A stretch of 64,000 nt of DNA from contig NZ_JAQZZL010000001.1 in assembly GCF_028745505.1 (NCBI RefSeq), positions 2,105,818-2,169,817 of the forward strand, given 5' to 3'. The position numbers and the translations under genes were made by a program. This DNA is from Lentisphaera marina. GTDB taxonomy: Bacteria; Verrucomicrobiota; Lentisphaeria; Lentisphaerales; Lentisphaeraceae. Below, piece by piece: positions 71 to 61,501 of this stretch (within the stretch, counting starts at the first letter, position 1; every line of letters starts with the position of its first letter). The notes under the pieces are model-generated. The model ran no database searches and was not told the origin of the DNA. It saw only the letters and a program-made list of their open reading frames with translations.

Positions 71-101
71 AATAATTGTACCGAAATCTTCGCTAATGAC
101 A
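71..101 (-). promoter_or_regulatory. TGTCA-N17-ACAATTATT promoter element
   Basis: Read on the minus strand this is TGTCA, 17 bases, then ACAATTATT, pointing at the partial gene at the left edge. It matches the element found before many other genes in the window. Confidence 0.6.
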
Positions 102-200
102 CGAATCACATTTTATTTTTTGTAAAAAAATACTGTATTTACTTCAAGCCTAAATATTAGCGAGTTTTATTCACCCTTATAAATCACTCATTAAAATAAG

Positions 201-932
201 TTATTTTTTTCTAGAAAAAGAGCTGATCCAAGCCGCTAGATCATGTATATCCTCTTCACTTTTTATGCTTTTTGCGTAAAACGCCATTGTCTGACCCATT
301 GCATCATCTTTATGAGTGCCACGAGTTCCATTTTTAAAGTTTTTCAATTGTTTGAGTATGTACCAACCATGCTGATGATTCAGTCTTGGGACTTTATTTA
401 CCGAATCACCTTCAGCACTATCTCCGTGGCAATAAGAGCAGCCATTTTCTCTATAAAGGCGTTCGCCTCTCAAGGTGTTGCCATAGACGCGATGAACTTC
501 TTTTTCTGAAGACACATTTTTAATATAAGTAGAAATCTTATTAAGCTCATCATCACTAAGGTTTTTAGCTATTTCCGCCATGATGATACTCTGAGGGTTT
601 TTTGGATCAGAAGCTCTCCACCCCTTTTTATAGGAAATTATTTGATGCTTGATATACTCAATATTTTGTCCCGAAAGCCTCGGACTTAACATCTTTTGAT
701 TTCCTTCGCCATCTGTACCATGACAAGATGCGCATATGGCAAAAGGATGTGTTGCCGGGAGCATCTTATGATCTGAAGTTTCTTTTGCGGAACTCGCAAG
801 TACCTGCCCTTCAGTCACAGATGAATCGCTTGGTGCCTTGCTGTCTTCGGAATCTTTTTTCCCGTTGCTACAAGCTATGAAATAGCCAAGTGCTAGGTAT
901 AAAAGCAAAATGGATTTGGGTAAGTTTTTCAT
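201..932 (-). CDS. diheme cytochrome c lipoprotein (c4/c553-like)
   Basis: Two class-I cytochrome c domains in tandem, each with a CxxCH heme site (CASCH and CSYCH) followed by the GxxxEG pattern of small soluble c-type cytochromes, with downstream Met residues as likely axial ligands. The N-terminus is hydrophobic and ends in a lipobox-like FIACS, so the protein is probably exported and lipid-anchored; its likely role is periplasmic electron transfer. The longer frame starts at 947, but the ATG at 932 (243 aa) is preferred because AAAGGAAC sits 6-7 bases before it. It has its own promoter element (968-998). The electron partner is unknown; the heme-containing DUF1592 proteins and the PVC dehydrogenase in this window are plausible but unproven partners. 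Confidence 0.85.
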   Translation of the reverse strand: MKNLPKSILLLYLALGYFIACSNGKKDSEDSKAPSDSSVTEGQVLASSAKETSDHKMLPATHPFAICASCHGTDGEGNQKMLSPRLSGQNIEYIKHQIISYKKGWRASDPKNPQSIIMAEIAKNLSDDELNKISTYIKNVSSEKEVHRVYGNTLRGERLYRENGCSYCHGDSAEGDSVNKVPRLNHQHGWYILKQLKNFKNGTRGTHKDDAMGQTMAFYAKSIKSEEDIHDLAAWISSFSRKK

Positions 933-967
933 GACAGTTCCTTTCATTAAGTTTTACTAATATACTT

Positions 968-998
968 AATAATTGTCGTGAAATCCATAAACATGACT
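968..998 (-). promoter_or_regulatory. AGTCA-N17-ACAATTATT promoter element
   Basis: Minus-strand reading gives AGTCA, 17 bases ending CACG, then ACAATTATT. The predicted transcript start would be roughly 30 bases before the cytochrome start at 932. One mismatch to the TGTCA box. Confidence 0.6.
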
Positions 999-1213
999 AA
1001 AATAAATAACTTTAAAAAATTTTTCTAGCTTTAAGTCCTTTACGATAGGCGAAAAACTCCCAAAATAAGATAAAATCTATCATTCAAAAGCTTAAATCTA
1101 TAAAGGCTGTGTAAAAAACAGATATATGAGCCTTTTGCAAAAGTCTTGAAATAAGCTGAATAAAAGTAGAAACATGCTATCTCAATTGTTACCACAACAA
1201 AAAGAGGATAAAC

Positions 1214-2095
1214 ATGAATCTACTCAACTTATGGAATACCATCGAATCGTACTTATTTCCACAGCTAGAAGAACTACTCACAGAAGAATTGAATAAAAAA
1301 GAACGTGAATTCATTCAGGTTTGCACACTTGCAGAACTGGATCAGTTTGTGTTCGAATTGGAATGGAAAAGAATTGGACGTAAGTCACAGGATCGTTTAA
1401 ATATCTTAAAAGCTTTCGTTGCTAAAGCTGTCTATAATCTGGATACGACTCGTAGTTTAATTAGCTATCTTGAATCAGCTCCGACCCTCCGACGTTTGTG
1501 TGGATGGGAGTTTAAGAAAAATATCCCTCACGAAAGTAAGTTTTCACGTGTCTTCGCAGATATCGCCAACACAGAGCTTTGTCAAAAGATTCACGAGAAG
1601 ATGATTATCTCAAATTGTTCAAAACGAGTCATTGGTCATGTCAGTCGAGACTCTACCGCAATTGAAGCTCGAGAGAAAATAGTTCATAAATATGTAAGCG
1701 ATACAAAAATAACTAGAAAGCGAGGACGACCAAAAAGGGGCGATATACGCACTAAGGAAAAAACAGTTGTTGAACGTCAATTTGGTCAAACGTTTGAAGA
1801 GAATATATCGGAACTTCCAAACCATTGTAATAAAGGCAATAAACGGAACAGCAATGGTTATAATAGCTCATGGAAAGGCTACAAGTTACACATTGACTGT
1901 ATTGATGGTGATATACCTGCCTCAATTATACTGACCTCTGCATCGGTCCATGATAGCCAAGTCGCTATACCATTAACTCAGATGAGTAAAGAACGCTTTA
2001 CGAATTTATATGATCTAATGGATGCCGCTTATGATTCACCTTCTATACACCAGTTCAGTCAAGATTTAGGCGTACTTTTCTTTTGGCTAACATAA
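1214..2095 (+). pseudogene. IS5/IS1182-like transposase, 3'-truncated
   Basis: 293-codon frame with the layout of IS5-group DDE transposases: a helical N-terminus (SYLESAPTLRRLCGWE, typical of this group), first catalytic Asp in RDSTAIEA (about residue 146), a basic linker, WKGYKLHIDC, and second Asp in LMDAAYDSPS (about residue 270). The catalytic Glu and the C-terminal third are missing. From about residue 286 the frame reads through foreign DNA, the antisense of a truncated XRE gene, giving the tail VLFFWLT. A good ribosome site (AAGAGGATAAAC) precedes the ATG. Upstream, GAGCCTTTTGCAAAAG (1128-1143) resembles the left end of such elements; no matching right end was found. Probably inactive. 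Confidence 0.8.
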
Positions 2096-3186: not shown

Positions 3187-3402
3187 CTATGATTCTTCAT
3201 CCGGTAAATATTCTAAAATATCTCCTGGTTGACAGTCTAGGTAGTCACAAATGGCTTCTAGAGTTGAGAAACGTATGGCTCTGGCTTTACCTGTTTTGAG
3301 CACAGAAAGGTTCTGTGCGGTAACATCTACCGCTTTTGATAAATCATTGAGGCGCACTTTTCTTTTGGCTAACATAACATCTAAGTTAACTGTGATAGGC
3401 AA
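3187..3402 (-). CDS. XRE-family (YozG-type) transcriptional regulator
   Basis: 71-aa single-domain helix-turn-helix protein. It carries the hallmark pattern of the small Cro/CI regulators of the YozG group: PITVNLDVMLAKRKV, the HTH around residues 17-40, the recognition-helix segment LSVLKTGKARAIRFSTL and the ending CQPGDILEY. The start is TTG, chosen because AAGGA lies 7 bases upstream and the homologous start is conserved. It follows the DUF2975-like gene by 17 bases. In Firmicutes and others this regulator is usually paired with a DUF2975 membrane protein, as here. The upstream palindrome at 4610-4635 is a candidate operator. Confidence 0.9.
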   Translation of the reverse strand: MPITVNLDVMLAKRKVRLNDLSKAVDVTAQNLSVLKTGKARAIRFSTLEAICDYLDCQPGDILEYLPDEES

Positions 3403-3419
3403 CTGTAAGTCCTTATAAT

Positions 3420-4544
3420 TTAAATAGTGAGTGAGGTATCTTCGAGCATTTTAGATCCATGGTCAATTATATAACTGAGACACAGAAAGAGAATGCCGGC
3501 AATGAGACTATCTATGTTTCCAAAATTCGGTAGTAGCTGTGAATCTGCACTGACCTGATTAGTCAAAAGCTCTAAATTGTTTGGATCTAAACTTACTTTC
3601 ATAAAATAGATACCAGTAAATATGGAATGACTTATCCATAAAATACCCAAGAATCGGAAAGAGAAAATCACACTCTTGCTAAATGGATCCTTAGCCATCC
3701 ACGATTTTGCTATAATAAAGAATAAAATCATAGACAAAGAATTAAATATCAGTATACCTACATTCATCGGTGTGTATATTATTTTAACTCTGGAGCCTAC
3801 TAATTTTTCCAAGTCCTCTATTTCCTTTTCTCTTTCCTGTTTCCTTTCCCTTAACTGCTGTTCAGAAGATTGTTTATTAAATGGATTTTCACGCAAATAA
3901 TTTTCACTATCAAGGATATCTTTTTCATAACGAGAAATCCATTCTTTACAATCTTTTATATCATCCTCAATACCAATTATATACTTTTCATGGTCTTTAA
4001 TTTTTGCTTTTGATTTAAGTATGGTTTTTTCATACCCGGTTACAGTCTTTTTTATATCTTCGCAAAACGTTTTGTATAAATTTATTAACCTATATGTTTT
4101 AGATTTTGGATCGCTTGCATCGAGTTTTTTTTCAAGATTTTTAATTTGAAGCTCATATCCTTCAATCTTCTTTCGAGCATTAGTTGCCATATTGTTGTAA
4201 GATTCGATAAGGTTCCCATCACTAATTATCAAATCTTTATAAAATTCGATACGATCTTTGTGCCTTAAGATCTCAACTTTCGACTTTTCAATATCCTCCT
4301 TAGATTCCACAATTCTTTCTTGGTAGTATTCATACATCTCTTCATGTCTTTCCTGCCTAGACTTACTAACTTCCTGCGATAATTTTTCACCTTCTTTTAT
4401 TGATTCTAAAGCTTCAGACATGACTCTGTCCGTCAAACTAAACAGTATTGGGGCAACAAGTACAGACAGAACAAATAGACCAGAAATTACAGCCAATACT
4501 CTCCCGAAAAATTTAACTTTATTGCCATGGGCATCTTTAAGCAT
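3420..4544 (-). CDS. DUF2975-like membrane protein with coiled-coil insertion
   Basis: 374 aa. Predicted helices: TM1 about 16-38, TM2 254-281, TM3 291-315, TM4 343-361, then the DUF2975-like tail DHGSKMLEDTSLTI. Between TM1 and TM2 lies about 210 residues of highly charged Lys/Glu-rich coiled coil (about 40-250), placed by topology outside the membrane core. Ordinary DUF2975 proteins are about 160-200 aa with short loops, so the insertion is unusual. It is translated just before the XRE regulator (17-base gap) and probably cotranscribed with it; these pairs are thought to act as small regulatory modules, but their signal is unknown. Assignment rests on the C-terminus and the XRE neighbour. 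Confidence 0.65.
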   Translation of the reverse strand: MLKDAHGNKVKFFGRVLAVISGLFVLSVLVAPILFSLTDRVMSEALESIKEGEKLSQEVSKSRQERHEEMYEYYQERIVESKEDIEKSKVEILRHKDRIEFYKDLIISDGNLIESYNNMATNARKKIEGYELQIKNLEKKLDASDPKSKTYRLINLYKTFCEDIKKTVTGYEKTILKSKAKIKDHEKYIIGIEDDIKDCKEWISRYEKDILDSENYLRENPFNKQSSEQQLRERKQEREKEIEDLEKLVGSRVKIIYTPMNVGILIFNSLSMILFFIIAKSWMAKDPFSKSVIFSFRFLGILWISHSIFTGIYFMKVSLDPNNLELLTNQVSADSQLLPNFGNIDSLIAGILFLCLSYIIDHGSKMLEDTSLTI

Positions 4545-11367: not shown

Positions 11368-12075
11368 CTAATTAAGCGGTACTACAGTGACACCATCTTC
11401 TAGAGTGACAGCGTCATGATCAAGTTCTGTTAAACGCCCTACTCCGGCAGCCTCCACATGGCCATCAACAAACCACACATTGCCCTTGTTATTATGACGA
11501 ATATGAATGCCTTTACAGTTGGCACCATCTCGATCATCCCAGTAAAAAGTAAAGCGCTGCACTAATTGGCCATTTGTTGGGCTACTGCCATTATTATCCA
11601 CTTTTACAGAATCTGCAAAAAGGTAAAAATCACTGCTTGAATTCACCTCACTAGGCTTAATGTAAATACCTTTGATTCCATCGTCCTGAATAAAAGTAAC
11701 TCCTTCACGTGGGTCCCATTTCCTGTCCATGGAACCACCATAAGTCATTTGATATTTGTTATGATTCCAATCGTTTAGCCAGTCACCTGGATAAGGAAAA
11801 CTCGGACAGGTCATGACATCTTCGTTTATGGGTAAGTATTCATGATTATACATGGCTTCGGGCCACCAATCACCTCCTGCATTTAGGGTGAGGTTGCCTT
11901 CATTATCATCGGCATAAAAATACTGGGCATTGCCTATTTGTCTTAGGTTGCTTTTACAAAGGGCTGCTCGACTTTTGTCTCGTGCACTCGCCAATGAAGG
12001 GGCTAATAAAGAAACCAGTATTCCTATAACCGTCACAACAACTAATATTTCTATTAAAGTAAACTTCTTATTCAT
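11368..12075 (-). CDS. prepilin-like protein with H-X9-DG motif
   Basis: 235 aa. N-terminal type IV prepilin/type II pseudopilin signal [18 protein letters not shown], cleaved before Phe by a prepilin peptidase, then the hydrophobic pilin helix and the [20 protein letters not shown] segment. Near the end HNNKGNVWFVDG matches the H-X9-DG processing-associated motif found in large families of such proteins in PVC bacteria. The start at 12075 is chosen over 12096 because GAGGTGAAT lies just before it. Sits alone with its own promoter element. Function is probably a surface or secretion pseudopilin; a role in handling polysaccharide is only inferred from context. Confidence 0.88.
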   Translation of the reverse strand: MNKKFTLIEILVVVTVIGILVSLLAPSLASARDKSRAALCKSNLRQIGNAQYFYADDNEGNLTLNAGGDWWPEAMYNHEYLPINEDVMTCPSFPYPGDWLNDWNHNKYQMTYGGSMDRKWDPREGVTFIQDDGIKGIYIKPSEVNSSSDFYLFADSVKVDNNGSSPTNGQLVQRFTFYWDDRDGANCKGIHIRHNNKGNVWFVDGHVEAAGVGRLTELDHDAVTLEDGVTVVPLN

Positions 12076-12108
12076 CGCCAATTCACCTCTAATCATAATC
12101 CATTTAAC

Positions 12109-12139
12109 TACAATTGTTGCGAAATTTCAAGAGATGACA
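12109..12139 (-). promoter_or_regulatory. TGTCA-N17-ACAATTGTA promoter element
   Basis: Minus-strand TTGTCA, then ACAATTGTA after 17 bases. The -10-like box ends about 34 bases before the preferred prepilin start at 12075. Confidence 0.65.
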
Positions 12140-14109: not shown

Positions 14110-16812
14110 TTATTTACTTTGAAACTCTTTACTTTTCACCAGGCTATGAATGAAGTCAGAAACCTGATAGTTTTTCTTCTCTGCTGAGGCGATAATTCTG
14201 TCAGCTAGCTCCTGGTCCGTAAAGGCATAGGATCTGCCTAAGCCGTAACCAATGATTGCTTCAGTGAAGTTGCGAGCAAAATCTGCCTTTCTATCGTGGA
14301 TGCGGTCACGCATCTCAAGGAAATCAGCAAACTTAGGACCCTTGTGGAATTTACCGGAAGGGTCGATTTCCCAGGTCATCGCTTTTTGCCCTTTAGCGTG
14401 GAAATGTTCTTCTGTGCGCCACTTACCCGAGGCACTGAAGTTCTCCATGCCAAAGCCAATGGGGTCAATCTTACGGTGACAGCTCGCACATTGAGGCTCC
14501 TCCTGGTGAGCAATCAAACGCTCACGTGTAGTAAGAGGCTTATCTGCCAAACGTGAAATCTGCGGAACATTGGCCGGTGCCGGCGGTGGTGGCTGATGAA
14601 GAAGGTGGCGCAGAACCCAGGCTCCACGTTCAACCGGGCTGGATTCCAGACCATCACTGCCCATGGCACTGATAGCAGCTGTACCCAATAGGCCACCACG
14701 AGGTGAATTGCTAGGTAGTTTGACTTTGCGGAATTCGTCGCCTTCTACACCTTCTAAACCATAATAAGTACCAAGCAGACCATTGATCATGACATAGTCA
14801 CTTTTGATTAAATTAGCGAGCTTACCACCTTCCTTACCTCTGAGCAGATGAGCGAAAGACTCGTAAACTTCCTGACGAGCGGCAGCACGGGTACTGTCGT
14901 CAAAATCCCTGTGTAGGGCGACATTGAACTGGAAGAAGTCAAGGCGCTTCATATCGAGCCATTGGTGCACTAAGCCAGCAACAAATTTATCGGCACGAGG
15001 GTCGGCAATAAGGCGATCTACCTGCTGGGCTAAAATTTGCGGGTCACGCAATTTTTTCTCTTCAACGAGTTTTAGCAATTCTTCATCCGGTGGGCTACTC
15101 CAAAGGAAGTAGGATAAACGCACGGCCAATTCGCGATCATTTAAAGCACGACGTGACTCATCCTGTCCTGGTTCATTGAGGTAGATAAAACCTGGTGAAG
15201 CCAAAATGATACTCATAGGCTCAGCTAGTGAAGGCTTTAGCTTCCTCCAATTTACGCGCAATTGTTCCTTATTTCTTCTTTCATCATCATAAATTTCCAT
15301 GAGCTGATCGATGTATTTTTTCGAGGGCTCACGACCGCGCATTGCGGCCTTCGCAAATGCAGTCAAAAACTTGCGAACATGCTTAAATTCAGTCATAGCC
15401 GTATGACTATTTGTAGAGGAAATAACAGGATGCGATTTTAAAGTTTTATCCAGAGTTGTTTCTTTTTGAGCAATGGGTCCTTCTATTTCAATCCAGTCAA
15501 CCCAGATTGAAGCAGGTATGCCATAACCATTGTTTTTCTTACTTGCCTCATAAAATTTTCTTAGAGCCGCAGGCTTACTTGGCTGACGCTCCTGAATAGC
15601 AAATTCATGAGACGTGCTGCTTGAAATATTAATTTCTGTTTCAATGAGATTGGGCTTCTCTATACTACCTGAAACATGGTGAGTACTAATAACGTCAGTA
15701 AGACCCGAACGCAAATGGTTCGTTCTCTGTGGGTGGCCCAGTTGAATAAAATGGCGGAAGTCTTCCGATCCTTCAACGACACCAGCTTTGATACGCACTT
15801 TATACTTACCCGGTCTAAGAGTTCCTTCCGGTGGCTTAATCAAAATGCGATTCGTTCCCCATACATTCTTCAAGTAGGTTCCTCGATCATTATGAGGTAA
15901 ATCCAGATAGTGTTTAAAGTAAGTATAGGATCTATTTTTTACGACGTTGCCAAAAGTAGCTCGCCTGTGATCGCGGAAGCCATACTTATTGGGGTCTGGC
16001 ATTCCTACAAGCTTGATTGCTTGTCGATAAAACTCTATGTTACCGGGAACGAGCTTGGGGTCTTCTTTTTTTAGTTCCTCTAATATTTTTTTGTTTTCAG
16101 GTAAAGCGGCAACTTTATCTACTTCTGCTATCCAGGCTTTATAGTTGAGGTAAATATCATCCATTTCCTCTATCTCATTATATAAGAAGGGATTTACCGT
16201 TTCCTCAGGCTCAACACGAAAGACCATGGGACTTGTAAAGACCTTATTCTCACGAAGTTTAAAGGCCTCTAAAACGGCTGCTTTACCCAATTTTAAGTAC
16301 TGCTCAAATTGATCACTTGATAGGAACTGAGTGGAGCCCGAAGTATCATAATCACCTCCGCCACCATCCTCTGGGAGGCCTTTTACATCCACAGTTACTC
16401 CTAGGAGCTCCTGCATCGTGTTCTGATATTCACGACGATTGAGGCGACGCATGGTGATTTTTCCACCTGAATCAGAAAGTACTTCACGAGCTTTAACCAT
16501 AGTGAGTGCAAGTTCATCCAGGAACTCAGCCTTTTCGTCATTTTTAGGCTGCTTTTTATCTTCTGGTGGCATTTCCCCAGAGTTCATAACATTGAGGACT
16601 TTTTGCCAGGTCTCAGCTTGCTCAATGGTCTTGATATTAAAATCCAGGTCTTCGAGATTGATTTTACCTTCCTGCTTTTCTTCATCGTGGCAATTGAGGC
16701 AGTAATTGGCAAGGAAATCGAAGTTTTTCTCGGCTAAAATAGCTTGAGGTGGTGCAGCCTGCGTACTTAAACCAATAAATAAGCAGGAAAGTGCCGTACT
16801 TAATTTTTTCAT
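14110..16812 (-). CDS. DUF1592-type (PSCyt/PSD) heme protein, copy 1
   Basis: 900 aa with the PVC arrangement: signal peptide about 1-20; PSCyt heme site CLNCH at 38-42; DUF1587-like segment (MRRLNRREYQNTMQELLG); a central beta-rich region that may bind sugar; DUF1595/DUF1592 (LNDRELAVRLSYFLWSSPPDEEL, DKFVAGLVHQWLDMKRLDFFQF); DUF1588 (RGGLLGTAAISAMGSDGLESSPVERG) with a second heme site CASCH; and the DUF1585 C-terminus. Probably a periplasmic multi-domain redox protein; its reaction is not established. Its ATG overlaps the stop of the DUF1552 gene by 4 bases, so the two are translated together. Confidence 0.88.
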   Translation of the reverse strand: MKKLSTALSCLFIGLSTQAAPPQAILAEKNFDFLANYCLNCHDEEKQEGKINLEDLDFNIKTIEQAETWQKVLNVMNSGEMPPEDKKQPKNDEKAEFLDELALTMVKAREVLSDSGGKITMRRLNRREYQNTMQELLGVTVDVKGLPEDGGGGDYDTSGSTQFLSSDQFEQYLKLGKAAVLEAFKLRENKVFTSPMVFRVEPEETVNPFLYNEIEEMDDIYLNYKAWIAEVDKVAALPENKKILEELKKEDPKLVPGNIEFYRQAIKLVGMPDPNKYGFRDHRRATFGNVVKNRSYTYFKHYLDLPHNDRGTYLKNVWGTNRILIKPPEGTLRPGKYKVRIKAGVVEGSEDFRHFIQLGHPQRTNHLRSGLTDVISTHHVSGSIEKPNLIETEINISSSTSHEFAIQERQPSKPAALRKFYEASKKNNGYGIPASIWVDWIEIEGPIAQKETTLDKTLKSHPVISSTNSHTAMTEFKHVRKFLTAFAKAAMRGREPSKKYIDQLMEIYDDERRNKEQLRVNWRKLKPSLAEPMSIILASPGFIYLNEPGQDESRRALNDRELAVRLSYFLWSSPPDEELLKLVEEKKLRDPQILAQQVDRLIADPRADKFVAGLVHQWLDMKRLDFFQFNVALHRDFDDSTRAAARQEVYESFAHLLRGKEGGKLANLIKSDYVMINGLLGTYYGLEGVEGDEFRKVKLPSNSPRGGLLGTAAISAMGSDGLESSPVERGAWVLRHLLHQPPPPAPANVPQISRLADKPLTTRERLIAHQEEPQCASCHRKIDPIGFGMENFSASGKWRTEEHFHAKGQKAMTWEIDPSGKFHKGPKFADFLEMRDRIHDRKADFARNFTEAIIGYGLGRSYAFTDQELADRIIASAEKKNYQVSDFIHSLVKSKEFQSK

Positions 16813-18101
16813 GCCATGAGCTCCTTAATCGTTCCGCTACTATCGCCGTGACTATTGACCTTCACTCCAGAGGCCTGCAGCATGCTTAGCCATACATTGT
16901 TAAGTGGAGTATCTTTTTTAGCCGCAATATGCTGACCGAGTTTGAGATTTTTATTGCCGCCGGCAATTAATGTCGGGCAGTTATCCAAATGGTGAATTGA
17001 ACGGATATTAGAACCAAAAGCTAATAAGGTGTGATCAAAAAGACTTGATCCATCGGGTTCTTTCACTGCTTTAAGTTTATCCATAAGGCCAGCGAGAAGC
17101 TTAGAATGCGCCAAGTCGCGCTGTTGAGAGGCTTCCTCACGATCACCTGGAGAGTAATGACTCACATTGTGAGAACTTATTTCATAGCCAAGGCTGTTTA
17201 ATAAAGCTTGTCCTGGGAGACGATAAGTCAGCACACGCGTATTATCGGTTTGAATAGCGGCCACCATGAGGTCGTACATGACTTTGATTTCATCTACACC
17301 CTCTAGACCAACCTTAGGCTCCGTGAGTGGCGCTGCTGTTTTTGGGACATCGAGCCACTTCTCATCTTTGGCGAGACGAGTTTCAATATCGCGAATCCCC
17401 TGGAAGTACTCGTCCAATTTATCTGTATCGCCTTTACTGAGCCCGCGCTGTACGCGCTTTGCATCCGTCAGTACGGCATCGAGAACACTGCGTTTCTTGG
17501 CTATAGCTTTCTGTCTTTCGGGTAAAGGCAAAGTATCATCTGAAAAGAGCGCATGAAAAAGTTTATCGGCACTATCCAAGCCCGCCACGGGCTTCCCCTG
17601 CTCATCCCATGCTAAGGAAAGACCTGGACCATGTCCTTCATTATTAGCGCGTTTACTATCTATCTGGATTGATGAAAAGCGCGTCTCCTGCCCAAATTGA
17701 CGAGCCGCCACCTGGTCCGCAGATATCGTATTATTAAATTTTTGCCCTGGTACCGCATAACGATTAGCACCTGTTAGCCAGAAAGTACTGCCCCAATGTG
17801 CTTCATTAGAAAACTGATGCTGACAACCCTGTATAATTGCCATTTCTTTCTTATGACGTTCTAGCGGTTTGAGTCCCTTAGATAATTTATAATCGGAACC
17901 CGTGTCACTAATATTGGGAAACCATGTTTTATTAGTCACACCAAAACCGATACTCATAAAAAGTAGACGTTTAGGGGGCGTACCTGGCTTTTTAATACGG
18001 CTAGAAGGTGAGCTATCGTAAGCAATTGACTCCAGGGCTGGCAAAGTGATCATAGCACCCGCACCTCGTAAAAAATGACGACGATTGATATTTGTCTTCA
18101 T
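16809..18101 (-). CDS. DUF1552 Tat-exported protein, copy 1
   Basis: 430 aa. Twin-arginine signal NINRRHFLRGAGAMITLPALE, then DUF1552 landmarks: KRLLFMSIGFGV, QGCQHQF, GANRYAVPGQ, GHGPGLSLAWDEQGKPVAGL, LDEYFQGIRDIETRL, HNVSHYSPGDREE and a C-terminal GDSSGTIKELMA. Related to DUF1501 and sulfatase/phosphatase-fold proteins; no function has been proven for the family. Always paired in this window with a DUF1592 heme protein. Ribosome site TAGGAATTACAC and a promoter element at 18132-18162 support the start. Confidence 0.9.
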   Translation of the reverse strand: MKTNINRRHFLRGAGAMITLPALESIAYDSSPSSRIKKPGTPPKRLLFMSIGFGVTNKTWFPNISDTGSDYKLSKGLKPLERHKKEMAIIQGCQHQFSNEAHWGSTFWLTGANRYAVPGQKFNNTISADQVAARQFGQETRFSSIQIDSKRANNEGHGPGLSLAWDEQGKPVAGLDSADKLFHALFSDDTLPLPERQKAIAKKRSVLDAVLTDAKRVQRGLSKGDTDKLDEYFQGIRDIETRLAKDEKWLDVPKTAAPLTEPKVGLEGVDEIKVMYDLMVAAIQTDNTRVLTYRLPGQALLNSLGYEISSHNVSHYSPGDREEASQQRDLAHSKLLAGLMDKLKAVKEPDGSSLFDHTLLAFGSNIRSIHHLDNCPTLIAGGNKNLKLGQHIAAKKDTPLNNVWLSMLQASGVKVNSHGDSSGTIKELMA

Positions 18102-18131: not shown

Positions 18132-18162
18132 TACAATTATCTTGAGTTCATTAAATGTGACA
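18132..18162 (-). promoter_or_regulatory. TGTCA-N17-ATAATTGTA promoter element
   Basis: Minus-strand TTGTCAC, 17-base spacer, ATAATTGTA, ending 31 bases before the DUF1552 start. Confidence 0.65.
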
Positions 18163-22748: not shown

Positions 22749-22779
22749 AAGGATTGTCGTAAAAAATTAAAAACTTACA
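22749..22779 (-). promoter_or_regulatory. TGTAA-N17-ACAATCCTT promoter-like element
   Basis: Minus-strand TGTAA (one mismatch to TGTCA), 17 bases ending ACG, then ACAATCC, 85 bases upstream of the TctC-TctB gene. Confidence 0.45.
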
Positions 22780-27025: not shown

Positions 27026-27056
27026 CATAATTATCGCAAATACTGAATATATGACA
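27026..27056 (-). promoter_or_regulatory. TGTCA-N17-ATAATTATG promoter element
   Basis: Minus-strand CTGTCAT, 17 bases, ATAATTATG: one of the best matches. It drives the second DUF1552/DUF1592 operon. Confidence 0.7.
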
Positions 27057-34801: not shown

Positions 34802-34832
34802 TATAATCGTCGTCAAAGTCTACAGAATGACT
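34802..34832 (-). promoter_or_regulatory. AGTCA-N17-ACGATTATA promoter element
   Basis: Minus-strand AGTCAT, 17 bases ending TGACG, ACGATTATA. Drives the sulfatase at 34738; leader of about 55 bases. Confidence 0.6.
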
Positions 34833-36379: not shown

Positions 36380-36410
36380 TACAATTGTTTTAAAAATCCA
36401 TAAGGTGACA
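36380..36410 (-). promoter_or_regulatory. TGTCA-N17-ACAATTGTA promoter element
   Basis: Minus-strand TTGTCAC, 17-base spacer, ACAATTGTA; leader of about 75 bases. Confidence 0.65.
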
Positions 36411-38091: not shown

Positions 38092-38122
38092 TAGAATTAG
38101 GCTAATATTACTCAAAATGACA
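38092..38122 (-). promoter_or_regulatory. TGTCA-N17-CTAATTCTA promoter element
   Basis: Minus-strand CTGTCAT, 17 bases, CTAATTCTA. Weaker second box. The same sequence in almost the same form precedes the gene at 39967. Confidence 0.5.
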
Positions 38123-40066: not shown

Positions 40067-40097
40067 AAGAATTAGTATGAAATCACTCAAAATGACA
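40067..40097 (-). promoter_or_regulatory. TGTCA-N17-CTAATTCTT promoter element
   Basis: Minus-strand CTGTCAT, 17 bases, CTAATTCTT. Part of a block duplicated at 38092-38150. Confidence 0.5.
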
Positions 40098-41194: not shown

Positions 41195-41752
41195 TTACTG
41201 CTGTTTATATGTTATTATTGCTGATTTAGATTTAATTTTAGATTTAAATCCTGAAATTGATAATTCATATTTTTTTGGTTTATTCATAAAAATATTTTTA
41301 TATGTTTTTGGGTCTGTGATATCAATAATAATATTTGGCTTTTGATATGTAACCTGAACATTATTACTACGAATTACTTCTGCACCGTCTTGATCTCTTT
41401 TCCATACAGATGCTTGCCCGTCCTCTAAGAGTTTAATAATTGATGAAGTTCTTTCTTCATCTCCTGGATACTTGAACTTCGAGAACCCAAAATCGTAATT
41501 ATTAATTCTTATTTGACAGTCATATTCGAGGTGGTTATCTTCAGTTGTTTTTTTATTCCATGTAATTAAATCAGTATGTTCGATAGGAATAATAAATTTA
41601 GCAGAGTTATTAGTTACAAGTGATGTCATTGTATTGGTATTTGCTAAAGCACGTATGATTTTTTCATCTTGCGTAGAGTGCTTATCACTTGATGTACAAG
41701 ATGAAAGAAATAATGTTGAACAAAGCATTGATAATATGATTAATTTTATCAT
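41195..41752 (-). CDS. lipoprotein of unknown function
   Basis: 185 aa. Lipoprotein signal ILSMLCSTLFLSSCTSS. Mature part is mixed beta with no recognised motif (FIIPIEHTDLITWNKKTT, YDCQIRINNYDFGFSKFKY, SGFKSKIKSKSAIITYK). Promoter element 41853-41883 upstream, partly palindromic. Likely surface or periplasmic; role unknown. Confidence 0.65.
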   Translation of the reverse strand: MIKLIILSMLCSTLFLSSCTSSDKHSTQDEKIIRALANTNTMTSLVTNNSAKFIIPIEHTDLITWNKKTTEDNHLEYDCQIRINNYDFGFSKFKYPGDEERTSSIIKLLEDGQASVWKRDQDGAEVIRSNNVQVTYQKPNIIIDITDPKTYKNIFMNKPKKYELSISGFKSKIKSKSAIITYKQQ

Positions 41753-41852: not shown

Positions 41853-41883
41853 CATAATTGTCATCAATTATTTAATGATGACA
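41853..41883 (-). promoter_or_regulatory. TGTCA-N17-ACAATTATG promoter element, palindromic copy
   Basis: Minus-strand CTGTCATCATTAAATAATTG then ATGACAATTATG. Best match to the full consensus. Here TGTCATC and GATGACA form a perfect inverted repeat, so a dimeric factor is an alternative to a sigma factor. Confidence 0.65.
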
Positions 41884-49993: not shown

Positions 49994-51481
49994 TTATTTA
50001 TAGGGATTTGCACCCCATTGATAACGTTTAGAAGGATCAAATTTTGGATTGGGAACAGGCATTTGCGCCTTTGTCTCTTTTTGCCATTTTGCTAAAGCCG
50101 CTTTCATTCCCGAAAACTTTGCCGGCAAGCTCACTTTGTGGTCCACCATTTCATTGACATCGTATTTTATATTGTAGAGGTAAAACTCTTTACTCACTAA
50201 ATTCTCAATAATTTTCCAGTCACCTTTTCGCAATGCCGACATGGGCACATCATGGTGATAAACAGGATAGTGAGTGAAGAGCTCTCGCTCCGGATCAAAA
50301 CTATTTTTCGTCAGTGCCGGCACCATTGAAACGCCATCGAGCACTTGGTTTTTAGGTGCCTGAGTATTGGTGATCTCTAAAAAACTTGGGTAAAAATCAG
50401 AGCTGCTAAAAACGGCTTCAGAACGAGTTCCCGGATTTACTTTTCCTGGCCACCTCACGATGAGCGGCACTCGTATGCCACCTTCGTACAAAGTCCCTTT
50501 CCCCGATCTAAGCGGTGCATTAGAAGTCGCCACATACCTTAGTGGATGTCCTTCCGGATAGACATTGGCACTGCGTCCGCCTAACAGAGGAATATCGTCA
50601 TAACGATTATCAACACCGCCATTATCGGAGTAAAAAATAAAAATAGTATTATCTGTTAAACCTTGATCATCAATGGCCTTCATTAACTGCCCTACGCTAT
50701 CGTCGGTGTGCTCAATCATCGCAGCATAAACGGCATTTCCAGGGTAATTGGGATCTCTTTTTTTATTTAAATACTTATTAATGAGATCCTTATCCGCATC
50801 TAATTGAACGTGCACATCATAGTGAGAGACAAATAGAAAAAAGGGCTGATCTTTATTTTCTTTAATAAAATCAACACCCATATCAGTGAGTATCTGACTT
50901 AAACGTTTGGGTTTATCAAGCCTATAAGCCGGTTGAAAAACAGGACGATAAAAGCCGCCTCCATTATACATGTAAGATTTATCATAGCCACGTTCGTCCG
51001 GTGTATGACGTGCTTGTTTGCCCTTTGACTTCCTATCATTGAGGTGCCATTTACCAAAATAGCCGGTTTTATAACCCGCCGATTTCATGGCATCGCCAAG
51101 AGTAAAAATATCTTTGGGTAAATGCTGTATTTTGTGATGGGGCACAGTAACTTTTTCATAAGGGCGCCAATGACCGGGAATAAAGTCAAAAATCCCCACT
51201 CGTGCCGGCGTTTGTCCCGACTGAATACTCGCTCGAGTAGCAGAACAAACCGGTGCCGCATAAGCTTGATCAAAGACCATGCCCTGTGTGGCTAACTTGT
51301 CTATATTAGGGCTTTCATTAAATTTATTTCCGTACACAGCCAAATCTCTTCCCCCAAGATCGTCCACCATGATGAGGACAATATTCGGTGGAGTCTTTTG
51401 CGGTGCTGCTACTAAACTTAATAGGAGAAATTGGCTGTTCGCTACAATGCCAAATAGCATAATATATATATAAGATTTCAT
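49994..51481 (-). CDS. secreted sulfatase with CSATR activation motif
   Basis: 495 aa. Signal peptide LFGIVANSQFLLLSLVAA, IVLIMVDDLGGRDLAVYG, then CSATR at 79-83 in place of the usual CxPxR; Ala at the third position is tolerated by some maturation enzymes. GYFGKWHLNDRKSKGK, FYSDNGGVDNRYDD. The C-terminus ends KFDPSKRYQWGANPYK with no basic tail. Promoter element 51532-51562. Confidence 0.92.
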   Translation of the reverse strand: MKSYIYIMLFGIVANSQFLLLSLVAAPQKTPPNIVLIMVDDLGGRDLAVYGNKFNESPNIDKLATQGMVFDQAYAAPVCSATRASIQSGQTPARVGIFDFIPGHWRPYEKVTVPHHKIQHLPKDIFTLGDAMKSAGYKTGYFGKWHLNDRKSKGKQARHTPDERGYDKSYMYNGGGFYRPVFQPAYRLDKPKRLSQILTDMGVDFIKENKDQPFFLFVSHYDVHVQLDADKDLINKYLNKKRDPNYPGNAVYAAMIEHTDDSVGQLMKAIDDQGLTDNTIFIFYSDNGGVDNRYDDIPLLGGRSANVYPEGHPLRYVATSNAPLRSGKGTLYEGGIRVPLIVRWPGKVNPGTRSEAVFSSSDFYPSFLEITNTQAPKNQVLDGVSMVPALTKNSFDPERELFTHYPVYHHDVPMSALRKGDWKIIENLVSKEFYLYNIKYDVNEMVDHKVSLPAKFSGMKAALAKWQKETKAQMPVPNPKFDPSKRYQWGANPYK

Positions 51482-51531: not shown

Positions 51532-51562
51532 TTAAATTGTAGCAGGAATTTTAGAAGTGACA
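51532..51562 (-). promoter_or_regulatory. TGTCA-N17-ACAATTTAA promoter element
   Basis: Minus-strand CTGTCAC, 17 bases, ACAATTTAA, driving the CSATR sulfatase; leader of about 45 bases. Confidence 0.6.
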
Positions 51563-56440: not shown

Positions 56441-56451
56441 GAATGTCTCCC

Positions 56452-57120
56452 TTAAAATGGCAGTTGGACTTGATCCTTAGTCCACCCACCATGAAAACCC
56501 AATTGACCTAAAGAGCCTATACTATGTCCTTGCACATGGCCATCAATAAACCAGATATTTGGTTTATTATCATGGCGAAGATGAATGCTACCTTGGGTGG
56601 CCTGAAAACGGTCCCACCAAAAAGTCACAGCCTGATAGAACTCACCATTATGCATGGCCGCTGAATCAGCATAGTGAAAAAACTCTCTTGCGGATTCTAC
56701 TTCAGCTGGAATAATAAAGCGAAGGTCTGCTGATTCCATATTAACACCGTCACGTTTATTACCATATTTATCTCTTACTACACCATAAGCCCTTGCTTTA
56801 TAACTAGCTGCCCACTCCACATCACTGAGTGGCATTGAAGGACAGGTCATGGCATCCTTGGCAATAGGTAAATAACCATCTGTATACATGACATTTGCCC
56901 ACCAGCCGTCATGACCGCCTCCGGGTCGACTGACAATTAAGTTTCCGTTATTATCATCCGCATATAAATAAGCCCCAAGACCGATTTGCTTGAGATTATT
57001 TTTACAGACTGAGGCACGACTCTTATCACGTGCGCTACTCAATGAAGGCAAAAGTAAGGAAGACAAAATACCGATAATGGCCACTACAACTAAAATTTCT
57101 ATCAAAGTAAATTTTTTCAT
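56452..57120 (-). CDS. prepilin-like protein with H-X9-DG motif
   Basis: 222 aa. Begins [20 protein letters not shown], the type IV prepilin/pseudopilin signal. Then [27 protein letters not shown] and, near the end, [12 protein letters not shown] (H-X9-DG). Paralogue of 11368-12075. First gene of the group leading to the third DUF1552/DUF1592 pair and divergently placed from the ECF sigma gene. Probably a surface pseudopilin. Confidence 0.88.
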
Positions 57121-57148: not shown

Positions 57149-57179
57149 ATAAATAATTGTGAGATTTCAGATAATGACA
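57149..57179 (-). promoter_or_regulatory. variant promoter element before the second prepilin
   Basis: Minus-strand TGTCAT is clear, but the box 17 bases on is ATTATTTAT; the better ACAATTATT lies only 14 bases away. Counted as a weak or shifted match. Confidence 0.35.
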
Positions 57180-57449: not shown

Positions 57450-57480
57450 TGTCAGATTATGAAACTTCACGACAATAACT
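57450..57480 (+). promoter_or_regulatory. TGTCA-N17-ACAATAACT promoter element of the sigma gene
   Basis: Plus-strand CTGTCAG, 17 bases ending CACG, ACAATAACT. The -10-like box ends about 63 bases before the start at 57543. It suggests autoregulation. Confidence 0.65.
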
Positions 57481-57542
57481 GAGTAAATTTAGTATGAGCA
57501 TAAGTACAGCATTCAAGTATTTAGCAATTGCACTGGAGTTTC

Positions 57543-58118
57543 ATGAAACATTACACAAGACAAACGCTACTTCAAAAAATTAAGGATACGCACAGCGAAG
57601 ACTCGTGGAATGAATTTGTAACAATCTACCGTCCTTATATATATCACGTCATTAGAAGTTTTGGCGTAAAGTATGATGAAATTGAAGACCATGTGCAAAA
57701 CACTTTGGTCATTTGCTGGAAAAAACTTCCGGAATTTAACTATGAACCACAGAAAGGATGTTTCCGTTATTGGTTGTGTAGAGTGGCTAAATCCATGGTG
57801 TACAATCATGGACAAAAATTTTCTCGCAGAGCTGAATTAGATAAAAAAATTGAAATCCCAACTACACTTTCACCTGAAATTGAAGAAATATCTGATAGGG
57901 AATGGATCGATTTTATTACTAAAATGGATTGGGATAATATAAAAACTGATCTATCTAAAAATGCTCGCTTAAGTTTTGAAGCTCTCATGGAAGGTGAGTC
58001 ATTAGATAGTATATCTGAAAGGTTATCTATACCCAGAAATACGATCTCTGTTAATAAAAAAAGAATTACTCCAAAAATGGTTAAAAAGATTCAACAACTT
58101 AAGCGTGAATTAGGCTGA
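57543..58118 (+). CDS. ECF-type RNA polymerase sigma factor
   Basis: 191 aa from ATG 57543, preferred over the TTG at 57528 because GGAG lies 5-6 bases before it. Region 2: FVTIYRPYIYHVIRSFGVKYDEIEDHVQNTLVICWKKLPEF then FRYWLCRVAKSMVYNH. Region 4: EGESLDSISERLSIPRNTISVNKKR, a helix-turn-helix for the -35 box. ECF (group 4) sigma factors direct polymerase to a small promoter set. The plus-strand promoter element in front of it, also found before many genes of this locus, suggests it recognises TGTCA-type promoters, including its own. The kinase gene starts 53 bases after its stop. Confidence 0.85.
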   Translation: MKHYTRQTLLQKIKDTHSEDSWNEFVTIYRPYIYHVIRSFGVKYDEIEDHVQNTLVICWKKLPEFNYEPQKGCFRYWLCRVAKSMVYNHGQKFSRRAELDKKIEIPTTLSPEIEEISDREWIDFITKMDWDNIKTDLSKNARLSFEALMEGESLDSISERLSIPRNTISVNKKRITPKMVKKIQQLKRELG

Positions 58119-58171: not shown

Positions 58172-60088
58172 ATGGATGACGAGATAAACAACTGGAAAAG
58201 CCTTTACAAATTGGCTGAGGAAGATGGTCGTGAAAATAGCCTTCTTTATTCACTGTGGAACGTCGAAAATCGTTACGAGAGCTCGGAAATAACGGGTTCG
58301 GGAGCGATGAAAAACATCATTCGCACGGAAGATACAGTCTCTGGACGCGTCATTGCTAAAGCCGTGCTTAAGAACCCTCAAGATGAACAAGCTGTCGAAA
58401 GTTTTCTGAGAGAAGCGCGTATCACAGCTATGTTACAGCACCCAAATATTGTTCCACTCTACGACATAGGTCTCGATGATCAGGGACACCCTTATTTTAC
58501 CATGAAACTGATTAAAGGACTTAGTTTAAGAGTCATCCTTGATAAGCTCATCAATAAGGATCCGCAAACTCTCAAAGATTATCCACTTCCCAAGCGAATA
58601 GATATTTTTCTCAAAGTTTGTGAAGCTCTAGCTTACGCACATTCACGTGGTATAGCTCACTTAGACCTTAAGCCCGATAACATAACGGTGAGCACCTTTG
58701 GTGACGTTGTCGTTTGTGACTGGGGCTTAGCAGCCATTATTGGTCATAATGATGATATGGACGTATCCCTACTTGAAAGCCTGGACTACTACAGCAAGCG
58801 CTATTATACCCTTAGTGGAGAAATCAAAGGAACCCCGGGCTACATGTCTCCAGAACAGGCTAAAGGAGGCGATACGGTGAAAGATGAACGTAGTGATATT
58901 TTCGCCCTCGGATCTATTCTTTATGAATTACTGAGTCTTGGAAACGCTATCGACGGTGAGGGCGCCAAGGAAATAATTAGCGAAACTCTTACGGGCCATT
59001 TTGTAAAGCCAAGTAAAAAAAGGCCTGATCTCATAATACCGGAAAGTTTGGAAGCCATTTGTATGAAGGCCTTGCACTTATCTCCGCAAGAGCGTTACCA
59101 ATCGGTTGAAAAAATCATTTCTGATATAGATGCTTACCGAAACGGTTTTTTGACTGAGGCCGAGGAAGCCTCCTTTGCTAAGCAGCTGACTCTTCTTTAT
59201 AAACGTAACAAAAGTATTTGCCTGCTGGCTATGATGCTTGTTTCTGTGATAGTTATTGGTTCACTAGTCTTTATTGAGAGTTTGAGAAAGGAAAAACAGC
59301 TTACGACTAAGGCTTTAGAGAAGTCTGAAACTTTACTCGATATGAATAAAAAAATATCAAGAGAAGCCAGCTTAAGTTATAGGTTTAAAGCTAGGACAGA
59401 CTATTACCGCTTTCTACCTTCTCAGGCTGTTGAAGCTTATGAGGCAGCTCATATACTCCATGGAGGTGATTTTAGATCCTACTTATATTTGGCGAAGTCT
59501 CTTTGTGTCCAGCAAAGATTCTCTGAAGCCAAAGAAAAATTGTCTCGAGGCCATGAATTATTAGTCAAGAAACCCGAAGAATTTTCTTTATTGACTATGC
59601 AATTATATTCAGATTTAGCAGCGCTCAATTCACACAAGGTTTTAAGTGTTCAGGAACTTTACCCCATAGTAAAAAAATATTTAGGTACTGATAGCTATAT
59701 GATCTTTAAATCCCAGTTATTTACCTGGGCCATCCTCAATACAGAAAGAACTGCAGGTAATGAAATTGAAGAAATTAAAGCAGATCTGAACTGGCTACTC
59801 AGCCAGGAAAATAAAACTCCAATCAATGGTAAATTAAGCGGGAGGTATATGGGTTTGAAGTTCGATTTATCCGGTCATCCGCAATTACATGATATTCGCA
59901 GTATTTCTCAATTTACTTTTACAGAATTAAATATCCGTGGCTGTGACGTGAAGGAAATGGCTTTAGTTAAAGCTTTCCCAAGGTACCCAAATATGGATTC
60001 TTTTCAAAGAGTGGCAAATTTGCTTCTGGATGAGGGACAGGCAGTACACAAATATGCCTTTACTAAAACGAAATTGCTTCGTAAATAA
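58172..60088 (+). CDS. membrane Ser/Thr protein kinase with TPR-like domain
   Basis: 638 aa. Kinase domain about 40-325: glycine-rich region TGSGAMKNI, Lys 63 (RVIAKAV), Glu 81, catalytic loop HLDLKPDN (163-170; Leu in place of the HRD Arg), DWG (183-185) in place of DFG, and SPE (226-228). The HLD/DWG variants are frequent in PVC kinases and need not mean loss of activity. One transmembrane helix about 348-369, then about 270 residues outside, with TPR-like helices (EAYEAAHILHGGDFRSYLYLAKSL). Likely senses an envelope or substrate signal and controls the sigma factor next to it; phosphorylation of the sigma factor is an inference. Confidence 0.88.
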   Translation: MDDEINNWKSLYKLAEEDGRENSLLYSLWNVENRYESSEITGSGAMKNIIRTEDTVSGRVIAKAVLKNPQDEQAVESFLREARITAMLQHPNIVPLYDIGLDDQGHPYFTMKLIKGLSLRVILDKLINKDPQTLKDYPLPKRIDIFLKVCEALAYAHSRGIAHLDLKPDNITVSTFGDVVVCDWGLAAIIGHNDDMDVSLLESLDYYSKRYYTLSGEIKGTPGYMSPEQAKGGDTVKDERSDIFALGSILYELLSLGNAIDGEGAKEIISETLTGHFVKPSKKRPDLIIPESLEAICMKALHLSPQERYQSVEKIISDIDAYRNGFLTEAEEASFAKQLTLLYKRNKSICLLAMMLVSVIVIGSLVFIESLRKEKQLTTKALEKSETLLDMNKKISREASLSYRFKARTDYYRFLPSQAVEAYEAAHILHGGDFRSYLYLAKSLCVQQRFSEAKEKLSRGHELLVKKPEEFSLLTMQLYSDLAALNSHKVLSVQELYPIVKKYLGTDSYMIFKSQLFTWAILNTERTAGNEIEEIKADLNWLLSQENKTPINGKLSGRYMGLKFDLSGHPQLHDIRSISQFTFTELNIRGCDVKEMALVKAFPRYPNMDSFQRVANLLLDEGQAVHKYAFTKTKLLRK

Positions 60089-60142
60089 ATTTTCACAAGT
60101 CTTTAGCTAGCTGGCTTAATTTGAACTATTGAGGCCTATGCA

Positions 60143-61216
60143 TCACTTTATTTTCCTAAGCTCTTTAGTGGCGTTGTTACGTATATAGGGATCAGGGTCA
60201 CTTTGAGCGGCATCATTCAATGCAGCTTGAATTAATTTTGAGTCTGGTCCACGTGCTACCAACCATATTACCCCCTCTTCGTCCCACTTCCCCCCCGATA
60301 CTTTAAGGCCTGGCATAATGGTCTTTTGAATACCACTTAATAGTTTATCCCACTTGAAGTTTTTTAGCGTTTCCTTTGGTATAAAAATACGACACGCGCC
60401 ACCAAGCATCGCAATGGCATAAGAATTTTGTTCACGAACTAAAAATGGCCCCTGAAAATATACTGTATCAACTTTTTTATTTCTTTCTAAATTCAAATCC
60501 CTCAGGCAGCTTGAACACAGTTCAGCTTTTGGTATGTGACCAGCAACCCATTTTGTTTGATTTAGTAAAGTAGGTGAAGGCTCCATTAAACAGCCGTGAT
60601 TATTACAGTGTGCTCCGTCTCCATGTGTCGTGTTTTTACATAGACCTAAAATATGCCCAAGCTCATGTTGTAGTATATAGTTTTCAAAACCGCCACCCAC
60701 ATAACCAAGATCAATAGATATATGAGAACCTTCAATAATCGCATAGGGCTCATGCTTCCTTTCATCCCAATGCCCCTTATCACTGTCGTAGCACAAGATA
60801 TGTATATAGGCGACTCCTTGATTCATTTGCCCAGGACCATTTATACAAAGAAGTGGAGCACAACGTTTCGGAAAGCCTTCAAATTTAGATATTGGTATTG
60901 GCTTACCCTGAATTATTTTTATTCCACCTGGCTTATGGCAATGTGCGTTAAGGAACCTGTACAATGTGTCTGTAAATCCAGTTGGTAAAGACGCTCCTTC
61001 AACTATGTCTAGTTCTACGTAAATCTGCTTATAAGACTTAGCATTTAAGTAAAGATGTTCAGGATGCATATAGGTCGGTAATTTACCAGATTTTGAAGCG
61101 CACCCAGTAACAAACAACTGCACTGTGATCAGGGTGAAAGCTGCCACTGTAGTTATCTTCAATCGTAGTTTCTTTATTTCATCACCTCTCATAATTAGAG
61201 TAAATTTATTTATCAT
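60143..61216 (-). CDS. zincin metalloprotease-like lipoprotein
   Basis: 357 aa as an open frame; the start is ambiguous (ATG 61216 or 61192, neither with a clear ribosome site). Lipoprotein signal ending LFVTGCAS (Cys about 39). Active-site motif HELGHILGLCKNTTHGDGAHC (184-204): HExxH with a further His at 203, then CNNHGCLM and CSSC (234-237), reminiscent of metzincin/archaemetzincin cysteine clusters but with a longer gap. Probably a zinc-dependent peptidase held at the envelope. The C-terminus (DPDPYIRNNATKELRKI) looks like a HEAT helix. Promoter element at 61324-61354. Confidence 0.75.
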   Translation of the reverse strand: MINKFTLIMRGDEIKKLRLKITTVAAFTLITVQLFVTGCASKSGKLPTYMHPEHLYLNAKSYKQIYVELDIVEGASLPTGFTDTLYRFLNAHCHKPGGIKIIQGKPIPISKFEGFPKRCAPLLCINGPGQMNQGVAYIHILCYDSDKGHWDERKHEPYAIIEGSHISIDLGYVGGGFENYILQHELGHILGLCKNTTHGDGAHCNNHGCLMEPSPTLLNQTKWVAGHIPKAELCSSCLRDLNLERNKKVDTVYFQGPFLVREQNSYAIAMLGGACRIFIPKETLKNFKWDKLLSGIQKTIMPGLKVSGGKWDEEGVIWLVARGPDSKLIQAALNDAAQSDPDPYIRNNATKELRKIK

Positions 61217-61323
61217 TTCAAACAGCTATGAATGTTACTTCTATTTGAAGGGCGCACTGTTTACTACCACCCAAAGTAAATTTTTTCATAAGATGCACGC
61301 CTTAAATCATTATAATGATATTT

Positions 61324-61354
61324 CATGATTATGATGAGATTACGTCAAATGACA
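61324..61354 (-). promoter_or_regulatory. TGTCA-N17-ATAATCATG promoter element
   Basis: Minus-strand CTGTCAT, 17 bases, ATAATCATG, upstream of the metalloprotease-like gene. Confidence 0.55.
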
Positions 61355-61470
61355 GGCAATAAGAATTTTTCATGTTTTAATTATTTATAATCAGCACCTT
61401 AGAGTCATAAAACTCTAAAATCAGGTATTTTAGTATTTCTGAGTAAAAACGTAAAGCTTTTTCCTAGTTT

Positions 61471-61501
61471 TGTCATCTGAGCAAAATTTATGACGATTAA
61501 A
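61471..61501 (+). promoter_or_regulatory. TGTCA-N17-ACGATTAAA promoter element
   Basis: Plus-strand TTGTCAT, 17 bases ending TATG, ACGATTAAA. Points toward the sulfatase at 61648; no other feature is seen in 61355-61647. Confidence 0.55.

Follow-up and report, generated by a model that had tools for sequence, protein, structure and literature searches.

The 64,000-nucleotide stretch of Lentisphaera marina DNA analysed here (the window; C1:2105818-2169817, C1 being contig NZ_JAQZZL010000001.1 of the 5.30-Mb, three-contig genome G000) carries a recurrent pair of boxes, TGTCA-N17-AYAAT, with the 17-base gap counted between TGTCA and AYAAT. We refer to this element as dialect 1, and to the region of the chromosome in which it clusters as the block, or block 1. 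Dialect 1 is very probably the -35/-10 promoter of a clade of extracytoplasmic function (ECF) sigma factors linked to Ser/Thr kinases, and its copies would constitute one regulon extending over the whole island.

The exact motif occurs nine times in the window, against a mean of 0.37 in shuffled sequence, and none of 100 shuffles reached nine. When one mismatch was allowed, 22 matches were found versus 12 in shuffles, so that the one-mismatch list is a blend of real and chance sites. An earlier note on this DNA had described the element as TGTCA-N17-AYAATTATG and placed it ahead of about fifteen genes. All 15 of its sites are present on the strand that it gave, with 17 bases between the boxes; the box pair and the spacing therefore stand, but the AYAATTATG tail was overstated, being found in 2 of the 15 (27026 and 41853), and the consensus over the block is instead an A/T-rich (T-rich) tract followed by TGTCAT, a loose spacer in which YTCR is weakly represented, and GACAATTRTR. 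Among the same 15 sites, the first box is TGTCA in 12, AGTCA in two (968 and 34802), as the note had remarked of some sites, and TGTAA in one (22749), and the second box is exactly AYAAT in 11, with ACGAT at 34802 and 61471 and CTAAT at 38092 and 40067. The figure of about fifteen genes is too small for the motif as a whole, which reaches far past the window in a cluster roughly three times the window's length. Within the window, one site had been overlooked, at 57153-57179 (-), 33 bp ahead of the prepilin-like gene 56452-57120.

To determine how far the element is confined to this region, the whole-genome scan that the earlier note had called for was carried out, and 26 of the 50 exact matches in G000 fell within 160 kb at the locus (C1:2090871-2251417), with the reversed pattern occurring 13 times genome-wide. 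A profile of 51 positions was built from 43 block sites, and 150 first-look candidates were scored per genome (in G000, 150 of 3366-3769). All 38 matches at E <= 0.05 in G000 were located in C1:2.080-2.263 Mb, and the first match outside had an E of 0.10. Because block sites had trained this profile, a held-out test was made with a profile derived solely from the 15 window sites of the earlier note, using cut-offs of 14 and 10 bits. At 14 bits, 29 matches were detected in the block's other 131 kb and 30 in a sister-species contig of 186 kb (G002, described below), compared with 7 in 270 kb of flanking DNA and 2 in a 400-kb control drawn from 20 spaced stretches. The earlier note had considered that the element might be the organism's housekeeping promoter, in which case its being noticed here would be chance, and its two boxes, 17-base spacing and -10-like ACAAT/ATAAT do resemble a sigma-70 promoter. 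However, no profile match at E <= 0.05 lay outside the block (150 of 3769 first-look candidates scored), and two matches each were found in the held-out control and, by the genome profile, in another genome of the same genus (G001). Dialect 1 is not the housekeeping promoter, an explanation that we regard as scarcely credible. A scan with the sigma-70 consensus did not separate real upstream regions from shuffled ones.

The position of the sites relative to genes was examined for 46 block sites, defined as those to which an iterated matrix gave 19 bits or more. Of the 46, 44 face the start of a similarly oriented gene within 300 bp, at a median distance of 37 bp and at 50 bp or less for 31, while in the opposite direction a start lay within 300 bp of 6. 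The sites are thus orientation-specific and placed just upstream of starts, as the earlier note had observed, and their clustering at this locus here and in the sister species supports its proposal of one regulon across the locus. A second possibility raised in that note was an operator; on this view a transcription-factor dimer would bind the element and the genes would be read from another promoter. TGTC...GACA does form an imperfect inverted repeat, and the site at 41857 is nearly a full palindrome, but the two halves of the dyad match no better than expected from column composition, and complementarity of the outer pair, -2 and +26, is seen in 2% of sites; the repeat is only apparent and the dyad asymmetric. 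Moreover, the orientation of the site is fixed relative to the gene, the 31 sites within 50 bp of a start leave little room for another promoter, and among the Pfam families listed (25 of 37, and 25 of 65) no DNA-binding regulator was present besides sigma factors and transposases. The fixed orientation and the merely apparent dyad favour a directional sigma promoter, and we consider the operator improbable.

A candidate reader of such a promoter is encoded within the block. The window contains an ECF sigma factor gene (P0001) at 57528..58118 (+), with a likely start at the ATG at 57543, a methionine common to six aligned sigmas. Its product is short, with regions 2 and 4 only: sigma-70 region 2 is recognised by PF04542 (E 9e-8, above cut-off), and TIGR02937 covers residues 26-187 of 196, also above cut-off. 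A profile of the clade matches sigma-E (1or7_A) at positions 6-192, with an E of 0.004. Against TIGR02989 (Sig-70_gvs1, the Rhodopirellula/Verrucomicrobium family), the three sigmas described below scored 35.7, 48.0 and 40.5 bits, below the curated cut-off of 124.55. When the window sigma was compared with the rest of G000, 63 matches were obtained at E <= 0.01, of which the three closest (100, 76 and 70% identity) all lie in the block and the fourth has 41% identity. Each of these three sigma genes adjoins a Ser/Thr kinase gene, which in the window is located at 58172..60088 (+; PF00069). Past about residue 370 of this kinase, strong BLAST matches are restricted to partners of this sigma clade. 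The three kinases resemble each other in this C-terminal portion at E <= 1e-51 (the two other G000 copies being 46 and 39% identical to that of the window), whereas matches to the other kinase-like open reading frames (ORFs; 57 in the fetched stretches) are weak at best, with E >= 1e-4.

In both G000 and G002, a dialect-1 site lies directly upstream of two of the three sigma genes. For the window sigma gene this site is at 57450..57476 (+) and scores 38.6 bits (38.8 bits at the ortholog), and it is separated from the called start by 52 bp in both species. In G000, the third sigma gene is preceded, at a distance of 273 bp, by a PhoD-like gene that is itself headed by a site. The earlier note had counted the window sigma gene among the targets, in agreement with the site directly upstream of it, but had not proposed the sigma as the promoter's reader. 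The three paralogs and their three G002 orthologs share one sequence, NTISVNKKR, in the helix predicted to recognise the -35 box, a result that bears on whether the three sigmas might divide the sites into overlapping sub-regulons in place of one shared regulon. The diverged C-terminal parts of the kinases, as well as the variation among sites in the second box and the tail, would be compatible with such a division, but the identical helix in all six sigmas counts against it, and we think sub-regulons unlikely, although they deserve more weight than any other alternative considered here.

Conservation was evaluated in a search of 39 genomes, including G000, with G001 and G002 belonging to the same genus as G000. 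Orthologs of all three sigmas are present in G002 on the 186-kb contig, and in G001 (two contigs, 96% complete) no ortholog of the sigma clade was detected at E <= 1e-40. Profile matches followed the same distribution: 24 in G002, of which 23 were on the contig with the sigma orthologs, 2 in G001, and 0 to 3 in each of the other 36 relatives. Three of these relatives (G004, G005 and G008) contain relatives of the sigma at 40-48% identity with a different helix, and gave 0, 1 and 1 matches. One good match in G001 stands isolated despite the missing sigma clade (G001:C2:460029-460073, 243 bp ahead of a 522-aa ORF) and is possibly a leftover promoter. When the contigs of named genomes were searched for relatives, two distant matches at 25-26% were returned, very near records possibly having been excluded.

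The individual sites are also conserved between the two species. Reciprocal-best comparison of the block with the G002 contig gave 80 protein pairs, with a site in either species at 35 and in both at 22; since 32 of the 80 bear sites in G000 and 25 in G002, sharing at this level has a hypergeometric p of 3e-9. Distances from site to start are often near-equal in the two species (35/36, 84/83, 105/105 and 52/52 bp). In 19 of the 22 shared-site pairs, identity was 58% in the spacer, 52% in the 24 bases ahead of the motif and 29%, the chance level, from -60 to -25, and it reached 94% in the boxes, a value biased upwards by the selection of both sites on score and by the omission of the other three, weak pairs. 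At one strong site, C1:2079674, an opposite-strand transposase gene follows and only then a DctP gene (L031:17318-19390); the counterpart of this site in G002 lies 43 bp ahead of its DctP gene.

These comparisons bear on a different explanation, in which the island is imported DNA that kept a donor's promoter style and is read by the general sigma factor of the host, the ECF genes being passengers. The several transposase families in the block and the absence of the sigma orthologs from G001 would suit such an origin. The boxes have nevertheless stayed alike in two species while the DNA further upstream has fallen to chance identity, which requires a reader of this sequence, and the GC content and GC skew of block 1 resemble those of the rest of the chromosome arm in the stretches examined. 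Import of this kind is, in our estimation, very improbable, less probable even than the operator.

Several observations weigh against assigning dialect 1 to the kinase-linked sigma clade as a single regulon, or reduce the force of the evidence for it. The co-occurrence of sigma and motif is based on three genomes, two of them positive and one an informative negative, and ten site-headed genes of G000 have G002 orthologs without a site above the cut-off. The profile matches in the genome from which the profile was built are mostly training sites, and the genome matches in general come from the 150 first-look candidates scored per genome; in the held-out test the contrast shrinks at 10 bits, with 33 matches in the rest of the block and 39 in the G002 contig compared with 25 in the flanks and 18 in the control. 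Of the 46 block sites, two (2186132 and 2199672) fit a second promoter class, and three (2074875, 2097662 and 2117126), whose second box is poor, were excluded when the profile was aligned, and so we speak of about 40 sites. The distances are measured from gene starts that a simple ORF caller assigned. No site directly precedes the third sigma gene, which is separated from the site-headed gene by the 273-bp gap. Finally, TGTCAT/GACAAT departs from the AAC at -35 and CGT at -10 usual for ECF sigmas, a combination described as an early hallmark of the group that is no longer defining (PMC8103513).

The second promoter class, TAAGAT-N11/12-GTACAA, occurs in the same block (C1:2079724-2199673), where all 7 of its matches in 1.61 Mb are found; 6 are present in the G002 contig. 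Its example in the window, at 31668-31694 (-), is weak as a dialect-1 site. One site of this class heads a divergent ECF gene of the block (C1:2199059-2199637), which has no kinase gene within two genes and whose product scores 104.6 bits against TIGR02989, below the cut-off of 124.55. Both promoter classes are found at two prepilin-like genes.

If the kinase-linked sigmas do read dialect 1, the system would most likely operate as follows. The kinase would respond to a signal from outside the cytoplasm, perhaps a sulfated glycan or a product of its breakdown, that acts on the kinase's C-terminal part, and would in turn activate its partner sigma factor. The activated sigma would direct RNA polymerase to about 40 promoters over some 190 kb, with the sigma's own promoter among the predicted targets (autoregulation), so that the sulfatase, DUF1552, transporter, cytochrome and prepilin-like genes would be switched on together. 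A comparable arrangement, an ECF sigma gene beside a Ser/Thr kinase gene, is found in ECF43 (EcfP/PknT of Vibrio and EcfK/PknS of Xanthomonas), in which phosphorylation is described as activating the sigma (PMC8999054, PMC13147305). According to PMC8999054, the phosphate supplies a missing charge in ECF43, which has a neutral STTA or QTTA at sigma-2.2. In contrast, the sigmas of this clade all carry an acidic EIED (6/6), so the ECF43 switch does not fit as it stands. A phospho-switch might be located elsewhere than sigma-2.2, perhaps at Thr112 or Ser122, which are invariant in the linker of the six aligned sigmas; for EcfK, phosphosites are reported in the sigma2-sigma4 linker (PMC13147305). 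The present case also differs from ECF43 in the extent of its predicted regulon, an island of about 190 kb.

Other groups invite comparison as well. ECF59, ECF61, ECF62 and ECF217, for which phosphorylation control has been proposed and planctomycete example proteins are given (PMC8999054), are likewise kinase-linked. Among the open-licence titles and starts of abstracts that were listed (for one query, 20 of 1,352 papers), none dealt with a target promoter for these four groups or with a promoter for kinase-linked ECF sigmas of this lineage. In Bacteroides glycan loci, many ECF sigmas are similarly tied to local glycan-use genes, as reported in PMC3878776, but their neighbour is an anti-sigma gene where here it is a kinase gene, and the site-headed genes in L. 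marina include those for sulfatases, DUF1552 proteins and prepilin-like proteins.

The genes behind the promoter give some indication of what the island does. The 43 site-headed genes include 9 for sulfatases, 5 for DUF1552 proteins and 5 for prepilin-like DUF1559 proteins, and the other genes of the block (79 scanned of the 86 encoding at least 150 aa) include 15 for sulfatases and 7 with the DUF1592/DUF1588/DUF1585 set. Tct and Dct transporters, cytochrome c, 3-keto-disaccharide hydrolases, esterases, EF-hand proteins and transposases of several families are also encoded in the block. From this gene content we infer a role of the island in the use of sulfated glycans. On C1, two sign changes of GC skew were seen in the stretches covered, one between 0.52 and 0.60 Mb and the other between 1.97 and 2.015 Mb, and the block may accordingly lie just past a replication terminus.

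Within the window, the remaining dialect-1 sites illustrate this range of targets. On the minus strand, the site at 75..101 (exact, 37.9 bits) lies 36 bp from the start of a gene beyond the window that encodes 220 aa with a weak match to 3-keto-disaccharide hydrolase, and 972..998 (AGTCA) precedes the cytochrome c gene 201-947, whose G002 ortholog also bears a site. The site at 12113..12139 (-; 46.0 bits) is ahead of 11368-12096, for which a Pfam scan gave no match and a prepilin-like N-terminus is visible in the sequence; the site of its ortholog, at 46.7 bits, is the strongest in G002. Two DUF1552 genes are preceded by exact matches: 16809-18101 by the site at 18136..18162 (-), with an ortholog site of 34.2 bits and start distances of 36 versus 35 bp, and 25657-26946 by the site at 27030..27056 (-), with 83 bp at the ortholog versus 84 bp. 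A DUF1592-type gene, 14110-16812, which is one of the seven with the DUF1592/DUF1588/DUF1585 set, overlaps the end of the first of these genes. A dialect-1-like site (TGTAA) at 22753..22779 (-) precedes the Tct transporter genes 21348-22664 and 19871-21343, for which the ortholog also carries a site, and a sulfatase gene, 18475-19884, comes next after them.

Further sulfatase genes are headed by sites on the minus strand at 34806..34832 (AGTCA...ACGAT, 24.9 bits; gene 33377-34777), where no dialect-1 site was found at the G002 ortholog, at 38096..38122 (dialect-1-like; gene 36460-38055) and at 51536..51562 (exact; gene 49994-51481, with a site-bearing ortholog). Exact matches also lie at 36384..36410 (-), ahead of 35769-36299 with a site-bearing ortholog; at 41857..41883 (-), the near-palindromic site, 105 bp ahead of 41195-41752 in both species; and at 61328..61354 (-), ahead of 60143-61216, which has no Pfam match. 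A dialect-1-like site at 40071..40097 (-) precedes 38321-40021, which combines similarity to 3-keto-disaccharide hydrolase and gluconolactonase. The overlooked site ahead of the DUF1559 gene, 57153..57179 (-), scores 32.0 bits, and that of its ortholog 35.4 bits. On the plus strand, 61471..61497 (ACGAT) heads a shortened sulfatase gene, 61597-62481, which encodes 294 aa compared with 514 aa in its 96%-identical G002 counterpart; a second shortened sulfatase gene is located at 63113-63979 (-). Transposase genes of the DDE/DUF772 and ISL3 families are located inside the island at 1214-2095 (+) and 27640-28764 (-).

The genome as a whole contains 55 ECF sigma paralogs at E below 1e-9, most of them beside a kinase, and in the fetched stretches a kinase-like ORF was present within two genes of 42 of 53 sigma genes. 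It is conceivable, though we hold it at somewhat less than even odds, that the genome is parcelled into territories, each large block having its own ECF sigma and promoter dialect and its transcription being insulated blockwise. Bordering block 1 without overlap is a stretch with a second element, dialect 2 (CTGTAAAGAAA-N12-TCCG), all 14 exact genome matches of which fall in C1:2280238-2429262 (about 150 kb), or 11 distinct ones once near-copies are merged. With one mismatch allowed, 21 of 23 matches lie in 2.28-2.45 Mb, and the reversed control gave 1. Dialect 2 was first picked up in five upstream regions at 2.39-2.41 Mb, four of which match it exactly; ten of the 14 matches are outside that interval. 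Over C1:2280238-2454265 the promoter-like consensus is CTGTAAAGAAA...TCTCCGTG, mostly on the plus strand and with several copies near-identical; GC content in this stretch rises to 48%, and GC skew is weak or reversed. Among five other genomes, the closest relative of an ECF gene of the stretch (C1:2387616) is in G005, at 71% identity; this relative, G005:C64:5572-6174, has two in-frame stops. In five relatives, 6 of 9 dialect-2 matches are in G005, but the reversed control there gave 4, so the support from co-occurrence is modest, and one exact match on the block-1 contig of G002 counts against the division into territories.

Dialect 3, CTGTCY-N18-CGWA, has 11 of its 20 matches in 46 kb around two ECF genes (C1:1.58-1.63 Mb), where an off-by-one control (N17) placed 0 of 14. 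The reversed pattern occurs 19 times genome-wide, which leaves the clustering as the sole informative feature; of the 11 local matches, 3 lie outside the discovery stretch. For a fourth element, GTCAAA-N16-CGAC, 6 of 9 matches in the 1.61 Mb examined fall in 11 kb, four of them having been used in its discovery. A formal de novo dyad test on 48 other ECF genes, with nulls from random neighbourhoods and near-duplicates removed, placed 2 of the 48 neighbourhoods below the 5% null level versus 3 of 14 control stretches; one of these three, L048 at C1:1.60 Mb, covers the dialect-3 stretch, contains an unlisted ECF gene and was thus not a true control. Because this test was negative, the claim that territories are general is put forward tentatively. 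TGTC is present ahead of some other sigma genes in no common form. Three further candidates were set aside: dialect 5, with 3 exact matches all in the discovery region and 1 of 19 single-mismatch matches nearby, had little support, candidate D8 as written gave zero matches, and candidate D6, in the form used, missed the sites in which it had been discovered.

The characterised examples of kinase-activated ECF sigmas in the review literature consulted come from one group, ECF43. In the present case, sequence alone supplies a likely target promoter, a regulon of about 40 sites and a control in a sister species, so that the pairing of sigma and promoter, the kinase's role and the signal that induces the system become directly testable. 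Block-by-block dialects, if general, would be a natural source of orthogonal promoter-sigma pairs, and would give the organism a simple means of preventing cross-talk among dozens of paralogous regulators.

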